A stretch of DNA of 43,987 nucleotides from Alphaproteobacteria bacterium. Its GTDB lineage: Bacteria > Pseudomonadota > Alphaproteobacteria > Puniceispirillales > UBA1172. Position numbers and translations under genes: made by a program. The notes under the pieces are model-generated. The model was not told where the DNA came from and searched no databases. It worked only from the letters and a program-made list of their open reading frames with translations. The stretch spans positions 1 to 43,987 of the forward strand of contig JABIWM010000152.1 in NCBI GenBank assembly GCA_018701255.1, given 5' to 3'. How positions within the stretch are numbered: the stretch's first letter is position 1; each line of letters starts with the position of its first letter. Shown here one piece after another: positions 33,019-36,666 of this stretch.

Positions 33019-33297
33019 TCCTTCATGAATTCCTTCAACTTCATTTCTACCTTAGCATAATGCAGGAATAGACAAAGTATAAATCCACACTTTTTAAATA
33101 AATGATTACCAGTATTTTTTTTGAAATAAATCACGCTGCCGGAACGAATAGGTATTTGTGATAGGGCAATCATTGATGCCTTCATGCGTGCCTTTTGGAC
33201 AATACCCATACTGGACACATGCTGGCCAAATCGCTCTATCAACAACATGTAACTCAATGATCTGGCTGATTTAGTCAGATAGCGAAAGGAAAAAGCG

Positions 33298-33381
33298 ATG
33301 AAACTACAACTAAAAGAACTGCTTATTGCTACTGCGGCTACGGCTACTCTGGCTAGTGGAATTGCACCTGCACCAAAATGA
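33298..33381 (+). pseudogene. Orphan signal peptide MKLQLKELLIATAATATLASGIAPAPK*; candidate remnant of a bufferin (BufA/DUF2282-like) precursor
   Basis: RBS agcgaaaggaaa before ATG; signal-peptide-like N-terminus that stops at once after the expected cleavage region; lies just upstream of the MNIO remnant. Confidence 0.4.
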
Positions 33382-33524
33382 AGATACCTGCAATGGCGGA
33401 CGGCATGTCACGCAAAGGCGCACTGCATGCGCTTGATCGTAATCTTCCTACTAGCTAACCACTATAATCCTGCACGGCTTCTTGCGGTGCCGGATTATGA
33501 CTAATTACATGAGATTTTAGAACA

Positions 33525-34121
33525 ATGACGGAACATTCCCACACGACTAATACCGGTGCCATTAATGCTCGCAATAGTATTGATACATATTTGCCACATG
33601 CGGTGGGTGTTGGCTTCAAGCCCCAGCATCTATCCGCCATAATGCAGGATTCCAGCGGCGTGGACTGTCTTGAAATTCATGCAGAAAATTACATGCTTGA
33701 TGGCGGCCAGCGCAAAGCCATGCTGGAACAACTGGCAATGGATTTTCCCATATCATGCCATGGTGTCGGGCTTTCTATTGGCGCGCCCCAACCGCTAAAT
33801 ACCGCGCATCTGAAACGCTTGGTTAAATTGCTGGACTGGCTTCAGCCTGCTGTGTTTTCAGAACATCTGGCATGGAGCACCCATGGTGACATATTCTATA
33901 ATGATCTGTTGCCAATGCCTTATACTAAATCGGTGCTTGATAAGGTTATGGTATGCGTTCGGCATCAACGTGACCGCTGGCATAGGGGCGGTCAGCGGCC
34001 AGATATTCCTGCGCTGGTAAAACATAATTATGCGGTGATTGATAGGTTATCGCACCGGATGTTCAGCACCATTTATATTAGAGTCAGACATATTAGCACC
34101 AGACATATTATCATTAGTTGA
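33525..34121 (+). pseudogene. Truncated/deleted MNIO (DUF692) family protein, BufB-type
   Basis: GVGFKPQHLSAIMQDSSGVDCLEIHAENYMLDGGQRKAMLEQL..ISCHGVGLSIGAPQPLNTAHLKRLVKLLDWLQPAVFSEHLAWSTHGDIFYNDLLPMPYT matches the DUF692 N-terminal half; the central half is missing and only a DIPAL-like C-terminal tail remains. Confidence 0.75.
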
Positions 34122-35279
34122 TTTAACCATTTGCGGTGCCGGTTCATCAGCACAATTCATGACCGGAAACATGGATTTCAACCGGTGATGATATTGCCCT
34201 ACTCCGCTTTCCAGTTCGGACAGCATAATGCCATCAAAAGCGCTGGATTTCATAGCTTCATATGACCACTCAATCAGATGCATGTCTTCTATGCCGGTAA
34301 TCGCATCAATGCGGGCGGCCAGATGCCGTGCGACGCGTGTCACCCGATCTTCGTTTGGTCGGGCATAACTCGCTGACCGCTGAATACTGGTTCCAGTAGT
34401 CATCGGAATATCCTGATAAAAGATAACACTATCCGGATAAAGTCCAATCACCTGATTAGGAAATAGCAAAATATAATGCCATGCTTTCGGCAATGATGCC
34501 CATGGTTCTGGTAAATGCTGAATAAGGTTCCGGTAGTTGCGCGTTGACCACATATATGACGGTGACGGGTTAAAATTTCCAACCGATAACGCGGTATCGC
34601 CTGTAAGATGATAATCCTGATAATCCTTGCCATACAAATCCTGCAATCCCGGATGGGCAATCGGTACATGATAGCCTTCGTTGTCAACATCACGGATAGC
34701 TTTCCAGTTCACGTTCCATATCTCAGACTTAAATGGCGCGGTTGCCGGTACCAGATCAGCCAGTTGTTGTGGCTGGATAAGCGCGTCATGCGGTGCCATG
34801 ATCTCTTTCACGCTAGGCTGATGCCCGGGCTTGAAACGGATAAAAATAAACCCTTGCCAAATCTCACACTCAATGGGTTTTAATCCCCATTCCACCGGAT
34901 CAAGATCGGGCAGAGTTCTTGGCCGTGCCGGTGAGCGCAAAGTGCCGTCCAGATTAAAGCTCCATCCATGGAACGGACACACCATCGCGTTTTTACAAAT
35001 TCCATTTTCTTCGGTGACAACACGCGACCCCCGATGCCGGCATAAATTATGAAAGGCGCGAATAACCCCATCTTCGCCACGGATAATAAGCGCACGTTCA
35101 CCAACCAGATCAAAGGTAGTAAACTGGCCTTTTTCGGGAATATCATTGCTATGGCAAACCATTTGCCAGTGGCGCCGAAACAGCGTTTCTGATTCCAGCG
35201 CAAACAGCTCATCATTAAAATATGTCCAGCCGGGTAACCCGAACCGATCTTCAGGATTTGGAAAAACATCATCTGCCAC
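34047..35279 (-). CDS. Rieske [2Fe-2S] ring-hydroxylating/demethylating oxygenase alpha subunit
   Basis: LCRHRGSRVVTEENGICKNAMVCPFHGWSFNLDG (CxH...CxxH); non-haem Fe region DVDNEGYHVPIAHPGLQDLYG. Confidence 0.92.
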   Translation of the reverse strand: MADDVFPNPEDRFGLPGWTYFNDELFALESETLFRRHWQMVCHSNDIPEKGQFTTFDLVGERALIIRGEDGVIRAFHNLCRHRGSRVVTEENGICKNAMVCPFHGWSFNLDGTLRSPARPRTLPDLDPVEWGLKPIECEIWQGFIFIRFKPGHQPSVKEIMAPHDALIQPQQLADLVPATAPFKSEIWNVNWKAIRDVDNEGYHVPIAHPGLQDLYGKDYQDYHLTGDTALSVGNFNPSPSYMWSTRNYRNLIQHLPEPWASLPKAWHYILLFPNQVIGLYPDSVIFYQDIPMTTGTSIQRSASYARPNEDRVTRVARHLAARIDAITGIEDMHLIEWSYEAMKSSAFDGIMLSELESGVGQYHHRLKSMFPVMNCADEPAPQMVKSTNDNMSGANMSDSNINGAEHPVR

Positions 35280-35352
35280 GACTTATTCCTCACAATGTCA
35301 TAATGGGTTATATTATCCTAATTATGCCCAAAAAGGAAGCCAGCATCGCTTT

Positions 35353-36666
35353 CTAGCCCTGCCGCATGATATCCATGACGCATGGTATGTCTGGCAATTG
35401 CTGCAATCCTCCCAGAGCGATTTCTAGCGTGCTGGCGGTGTCATGATCCAGTCGTGATCCAGCCAGAGCATGAAATTTCTGGCGTAAAATATCATCACTA
35501 ACCGCATCTTCCGGATCACCAATGGCTTCGGTTGGCGCTGATTGATATTGCTTCCCATCTGTTGTCCGGATACTTGCCTGGGCAAATCGTTGACGGGGAA
35601 AAGCCGCATTAAATTGATCATTGCTCGTTATTCTGATCTTTCCGGCCATGGATTGAATAGCCGGATCAGCCAGACCAGCCGCTGATATATCATCAACGCC
35701 AATCGTGCCACGCCACGCCGCCACAGCAACAGAATATGGCAGGGAATATTGGGCTTCTTCTGTGGTTTTGGCCATGGAACATAGCCGCACAGCTTCATCA
35801 AAACTGCTTATCTCTATGTTGGCAATCTGATCTGCGGATATATCATGTTGTCGCATGACATGCAGAACAGCCTCAACCGCCGGTTGCGCCCAGCGGCACA
35901 CAGGATAGAGTTTTATATATTGCTCATTCATGTAATGATGCACCCCAAGATCAGCCCAGTATCCGGCCACATCCGCACCCTCAATGCTGATCGCAGGCGC
36001 ACCGGTGAATCCATCAGCTGCCAGATAAGCCGCGCTAACTCCTGCCATAGCCCCCCAGCCTGATCCATCCTTGACCATGCTAGGCGTATCAATACACCGC
36101 ATCATCTGGCTTCTTGGGCCATGATATTCAGCTATTCCCATAGCATGCCGTGTCTGGGTTTCATTCAACCCCAGAAGCCGTGCACCAATCGCCGCAACCG
36201 TGACCGCAATCCATGCGCCTGATGTATGATAATCTGCCGCACTGGCATGCAGGCTAACCCCCGCGCGCGTGCCAAACTCATAACCCAGCACCATCGCTGT
36301 CATGATCTCCTGACTATCATTAATAGCTTCGGCTTCGGCTATCGCCATGATGCCAGGGATAAGCCCGCATCCAACATGCCCCTTAGTGAGCTTCTGGCCA
36401 TCATGCGCATCCAGCGCATCTATACTCATCCCATTGGCTAGCGCCGCCCCGACCGGACTAACTTTTCGTCCATCCCACCACAAGCTGGCGCCATTGCCGG
36501 CAAACATACGCGCGGCATGCTGGCGGATAATAGTGGATAATTCGGTTTTGGATGCCGCCGCAGATACCCCGATAGTATCAAACAGGGAACGGCAGGCATT
36601 ATGCTTTACCGGTTCCGGGAAATCATTCCATTGCGTATCGTGAAGATAATCAATCAGCATCGTCAT
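35353..36666 (-). CDS. MmgE/PrpD family protein
   Basis: LFDTIGVSAAASKTELSTII, DAHDGQKLTKGHVGCGLIPGIMAIAEAE, GYEFGTRAGVSLHASAADYHTSGAWIAVTVAAIGARLLGLNETQTRHAMGIAEYHGPRSQMMR. Confidence 0.9.
   Translation of the reverse strand: MTMLIDYLHDTQWNDFPEPVKHNACRSLFDTIGVSAAASKTELSTIIRQHAARMFAGNGASLWWDGRKVSPVGAALANGMSIDALDAHDGQKLTKGHVGCGLIPGIMAIAEAEAINDSQEIMTAMVLGYEFGTRAGVSLHASAADYHTSGAWIAVTVAAIGARLLGLNETQTRHAMGIAEYHGPRSQMMRCIDTPSMVKDGSGWGAMAGVSAAYLAADGFTGAPAISIEGADVAGYWADLGVHHYMNEQYIKLYPVCRWAQPAVEAVLHVMRQHDISADQIANIEISSFDEAVRLCSMAKTTEEAQYSLPYSVAVAAWRGTIGVDDISAAGLADPAIQSMAGKIRITSNDQFNAAFPRQRFAQASIRTTDGKQYQSAPTEAIGDPEDAVSDDILRQKFHALAGSRLDHDTASTLEIALGGLQQLPDIPCVMDIMRQG

Follow-up and report, generated by a model that had tools for sequence, protein, structure and literature searches.

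Positions 33298-34020 of the window (the whole stretch of DNA that was analysed, 43,987 nucleotides long) almost certainly carry a pseudogenised bufferin operon of the Buf1/DUF2282 type, with genes for an ECF sigma factor and NrsF, in which two deletions have occurred. The locus is a known kind of system in ordinary gene decay, with no sign of new function. The remnants keep the order of the six-gene operon, bufA-bufB-nrsF, with potB on one side, a position shared with the clusters of relatives; bufC, doxX and the sigma gene have been lost, and the window holds no bufABC set with its DUF2063 partner. Given the parts that are missing, the remnant would be unable to work as a bufferin system, whose product is a copper-sequestering peptide bearing thiooxazole.

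The genome to which the window belongs (G000) is a draft of 2.03 Mb in 205 contigs and is 99.18% complete. The absence of the operon elsewhere in it was assessed by family profile searches for PF05114, DUF2063, DUF2282 and NrsF, which returned no other PF05114 match and no DUF2063, DUF2282 or full NrsF match. Deletion breakpoints were located by blastn and by alignment against relatives. The following features were identified.

33250..33297, + strand: ancestral upstream region of bufA, with the block CAATGATCTG..TGAT and an RBS-like GAAAGGA; aligns to the bufA upstream region of G001 and G006
33298..33378, + strand, with a frameshift to a stop at 33381: bufA 5' remnant, signal peptide MKLQLKELLIATAATATLASGIAPA; an open reading frame that aligns to BufA of G001 and G006, MNLHLKEILIATAATATLAGGVAPA
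33364..33374, + strand: bufA deletion junction GCACCTGCAC, about 151 bp missing relative to G006; from alignment with bufA of G001 and G006
33378..33459 (end at 33458-33459), + strand: bufA 3' remnant KIPAMADGMSRKGALHALDRNLPTS and stop, in another frame than the signal peptide; matches the BufA C-terminus of G001, KLPAMANGEKRKGSLHALDRDLPTA
33525..33948, + strand: bufB 5' remnant, N-terminal ~141 residues of an MNIO enzyme; PF05114, 73-78% amino acid identity to BufB of G001 and G006
33944..33950, + strand: bufB/nrsF deletion junction, microhomology TTAT of 4-5 bases; from similarity breakpoints against relatives
33946..34020, + strand: nrsF (anti-sigma factor) 3' remnant LWYAFGINVTAGIGAVSGQIFLRW and stop; PF06532, 91% nucleotide identity to the nrsF remnant of G004
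34021..34121, + strand: meaningless read-through of the chimeric bufB reading frame past the nrsF stop, overlapping the 3' end of the Rieske gene

The bufB remnant

The open reading frame at 33525-34121 (+ strand) matched PF05114 (MNIO; MbnB_TglH_ChrH) at 2.7e-39 through its residues 27-151, which cover only positions 2-126 of the 263 in the profile, and its best NCBIfam model was MNIO_BufB (NF050167) at 8.1e-44, with 149.9 bits compared with a cut-off of 310. Judged from this partial coverage, the reading frame is a fragment of a former MNIO/BufB member, and the first-pass annotation of this DNA had correctly assigned its N-terminal part to a DUF692/MNIO enzyme of the BufB type. The iron ligands of VcMbnB are H55, H91, E135, D165, N168, H194, D209 and E238 (PMC8888699). 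Two of these eight have counterparts in the retained half of bufB, H79 and H114, which by alignment and spacing probably correspond to H55 and H91, and the other six fall in the deleted half, in agreement with the earlier observation that most metal ligands are missing. Both the length and the ligand set expected of an MNIO/BufB maturase are incomplete. The conserved DWFEIHAENY has become DCLEIHAENY in the remnant, with Cys-Leu in place of Trp-Phe.

The bufB frame is still open across the 141 codons. A two-ratio codon model on the N-terminal 128 codons of four taxa gave an omega of 0.22 on the G000 bufB branch and 0.10 in the background; the former could be distinguished significantly neither from the background (2dlnL 1.43) nor from 1 (2dlnL 1.64), four taxa giving too little power. 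The flanking genes displayed no comparable rise in omega. Relaxed selection on the bufB remnant is not proven from substitutions alone.

The bufB/nrsF junction and the flanking Rieske region

DNA similarity to the intact bufB of G001, G003 and G006 ends near 33949, and about 3.18 kb are missing relative to G006, comprising the rest of bufB, bufC, doxX, the sigma gene and most of nrsF. PF06532 was matched at 33901-34017 over profile positions 166-204 (165-204 of 204 at 1.6e-5), reaching the profile end. The window's nrsF remnant scored 20-25 bits, the best value being 25.2 against a gathering cut-off of 26.8 and covering the C-terminal 40 positions only; it is identified as nrsF because it matches, at 91% nucleotide identity, the longer remnant in G004, which scored 64 bits over PF06532 positions 144-204. 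Its in-frame end reads LWYAFGINVTAGIGAVSGQIFLRW, with the stop at 34020, compared with GLWYSVGIMITGGIGALAGRIFLRW and a stop in G006. The tail RPDIPALVKHNYAVIDRL had been taken for an MNIO C-terminus, a reading that is contradicted by the PF06532 match and by the 91% identical DNA in G004, where there is no MNIO gene: the tail results from out-of-frame reading of nrsF DNA and Rieske flank. The stop of the Rieske gene (34047-35279, - strand) had also been placed inside the remnant. This gene does overlap the open reading frame, but 34047 lies beyond the nrsF stop at 34020, so the gene ends outside nrsF and only the meaningless read-through is involved.

At 34047-36666, the remnant is separated from a lyase gene by a Rieske oxygenase gene and an MmgE/PrpD-like gene, as is also the case in G001, G004 and G006. 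In G003, nrsF abuts the lyase gene without the Rieske and MmgE/PrpD-like pair, which indicates an independent insertion or loss at this position. The Rieske C-terminus is about 10-15 residues longer in the window and G004 than in G001 and G006 (34047-34130). The same interval contains a small repeated ATATTAG/ACATATTA motif, and the window and G004 differ there by about 15 bases.

The bufA remnant

The signal-peptide reading frame (33298-33381, 27 amino acids) aligns with the signal peptide that BufA has in relatives. All four core Cys codons of bufA lie inside the gap of about 151 bases defined by alignment with G006 and G001, and as this length is not divisible by three, the frame is broken just past the junction (CCA AAA TGA). 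Of the two elements of a Buf1 precursor, a Sec signal peptide and a four-Cys core, the signal peptide is kept and the core is deleted. The earlier description of an orphan BufA signal peptide was accurate as far as the peptide itself is concerned, but BufA does not end there, for its C-terminal DNA (KIPAMADGMSRKGALHALDRNLPTS and stop) remains out of frame. The ten-base junction sequence GCACCTGCAC recurs in G006, where it lies at the gap's 3' edge; therefore, the bufA deletion was probably repeat-mediated.

A DUF2282 search had been suggested earlier for 33250-33525; applied to the own genome, it returned nothing for PF10048. The bufA gene is intact in G001, G003 and G006. A match of the signal peptide to an HHHH-motif mini-protein was at chance level (E 0.19) and was rejected. 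With up to two mismatches allowed, no copy of the Caulobacter SigF motif GTAACC-N16-CGAA turned up in the DNA preceding bufA in the window, in G006 or in G003.

The parent operon and its loss in related genomes

The operon bufA-bufB-bufC-doxX-ECF sigma-nrsF was found beside potB in G003, a genome in a single contig, in the orientation of the window, and the same six-gene order occurs at the same place in G006. Pfam matches were obtained in G006 for DUF2282 (2.6e-24), MNIO (6.5e-99), DoxX (6.2e-6), NrsF (3.2e-38) and Sigma70 regions 2 and 4, and in G003 for DUF2063 (1.4e-22). The operon looks intact in G003 only, where bufABC stands complete with its DUF2063 partner; bufC is damaged in both G001 and G006. 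The first-pass annotation had proposed a metal-stress RiPP operon lost by deletion, with no bufC (DUF2063) downstream, and had pointed to the syntenic interval in relatives as the place to look for an intact bufABC. The search of the own genome, without a DUF2063 match, upheld the second of these points, and the intact bufABC of G003 at the same position, together with the near-complete operons of G006 and G001, upheld the first.

The lesions in G001 and G006 are known from draft assemblies. The bufC gene of G006 has an in-frame TAG about one third of the way in, and the downstream doxX, sigma and nrsF genes look intact (L023:8657-9367). In G001, where bufA and bufB are intact, about 1.6 kb are deleted, so that doxX is lost and the initial half of bufC runs directly into the terminal portion of the ECF sigma gene (L022:4084-4688). 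In G004, a lone nrsF remnant of 60 open codons lies between potB and the Rieske gene (L025:9413-9597).

G004 is the closest relative of G000 (98% amino acid identity in potB and 97% in the Rieske protein); in the potA/potB/potC tree the two are paired on short branches, with terminal branches of about 0.014 amino acid substitutions per site, and G001 is paired with G006. In G004 a longer piece of nrsF survives than in the window, bufA and bufB have left no trace, and the breakpoints differ; therefore, neither deletion can be derived from the other. Only about 120 bases separate potB from the Rieske gene in G005, where the operon is gone. In G002, close orthologs of potB and of the Rieske gene are lacking, and there is no MNIO gene. 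The distribution of MNIO was patchy, with matches in 5 of 81 relatives, and outside the genus a search of 74 further relatives found it in one, G007.

The bufferin operon is repeatedly lost within one marine genus, in which successive stages can be seen: intact (G003), with damaged bufC (G006 and G001), mostly deleted with traces (the window and G004) and gone (G005). Active selection for removal of the operon in this genus, to which at least three large losses (G000, G004 and G005) and two damaged copies (G001 and G006) might point, is considered unlikely; if true, it would hint at a marine niche where a bufferin is costly and not merely unused.

Proposed course of decay

The ancestor carried bufA-bufB-bufC-doxX-sigF-nrsF, with potABC-like transporter genes on one side and the downstream genes on the other. 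As comparison with relatives shows, one deletion inside bufA removed the Cys core and shifted the frame, and a second, of about 3.2 kb, joined the first ~141 codons of bufB out of frame to the last ~24 codons of nrsF. Both probably arose by recombination between very short repeats (GCACCTGCAC and TTAT). None of the components, from the precursor and the modifying enzyme with its partner to the regulatory pair, would then be functional, and the locus may be drifting out since bufferin protection against copper stress is presumably dispensable in this lineage.

Alternative explanations

An intact operon might exist in the organism and have been collapsed or mis-joined by the assembler, as could be imagined for a draft of 205 contigs, but this is very improbable. 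It would require an error at each of two separate lesions, family searches of the 99%-complete assembly for MNIO, DUF2063, DUF2282 and NrsF located no missing gene at another place, and the sister species G004, separately assembled, also lacks the operon here. Typical assembly k-mers are far longer than the junction repeats of about 10 and 4-5 bases, which also counts against such an error. A partial horizontal acquisition, in which only part of a bufferin operon had entered this site, would accommodate the patchy distribution of MNIO among the 81 relatives; it is the least credible of the explanations considered, since the operon occupies the same place beside potB in G003, G006 and G001, and in G000 the gap is bordered by what is left of the two operon ends, bufA and nrsF, still in their ancestral order.

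It was also suggested earlier that a precursor/enzyme pair had been reduced to something new, and the truncated frame, an MNIO N-terminal half with a new tail, could in principle be kept for a new function, for example as a small protein with the orphan signal peptide. The open frame and an omega point estimate below 1 would favour this. The open frame says little on function, however, and would be expected without selection, because the deletion is younger than the split of G000 and G004. Half of the barrel, six of the eight ligands and all core Cys of bufA are missing, the parts are out of frame, the tail is nrsF and Rieske flank DNA read out of frame, and G004 entirely lacks the truncated open reading frame. 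Retention for a new function is thus highly improbable, and decay of a bufferin operon by two deletions is the preferred reading.

Significance

Among the papers searched on SAR116/Puniceispirillales, the order to which the window probably belongs as judged from related records, none was found to describe loss of a bufferin operon; streamlining of SAR116 is discussed in PMC8547437, in whose main text copper is unmentioned. The present case may be useful for asking when seawater bacteria need bufferins. It is also a caution that PF05114 matches above the curated cut-off can be pseudogene fragments.

Comparison with known systems

The N-terminal ~125 residues encoded in the window align to the MNIO family of MbnB and TglH (PF05114), whereas six of the eight VcMbnB ligands (PMC8888699) belong to the half that is deleted here. 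In Caulobacter crescentus, CC3254-CC3257 and sigF-CC3252 form a SigF-NrsF regulon, a related arrangement that is metal-responsive (PMC3511200). The locus resembles this regulon in that a bufferin-type operon adjoins an ECF sigma gene and nrsF, and differs from it in that nrsF is down to its last ~24 codons and the search of the window, G006 and G003 for GTAACC-N16-CGAA ahead of bufA gave no match.

Genes for the sigma factor and NrsF have been reported in Buf1 clusters and not in Buf2 clusters, and the bufABC order is strictly conserved (PMC12452194). Compared with a Buf1 cluster, the window has a bufA without its core, a bufB without its C-terminal half, and no bufC, doxX or sigma gene, so that bufferin synthesis would, on the gene content, be impossible. 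The relatives carry the same genes as the Buf1 cluster (DUF2282, MNIO, DUF2063, DoxX, sigma and NrsF), with the bufABC order (PMC12452194).
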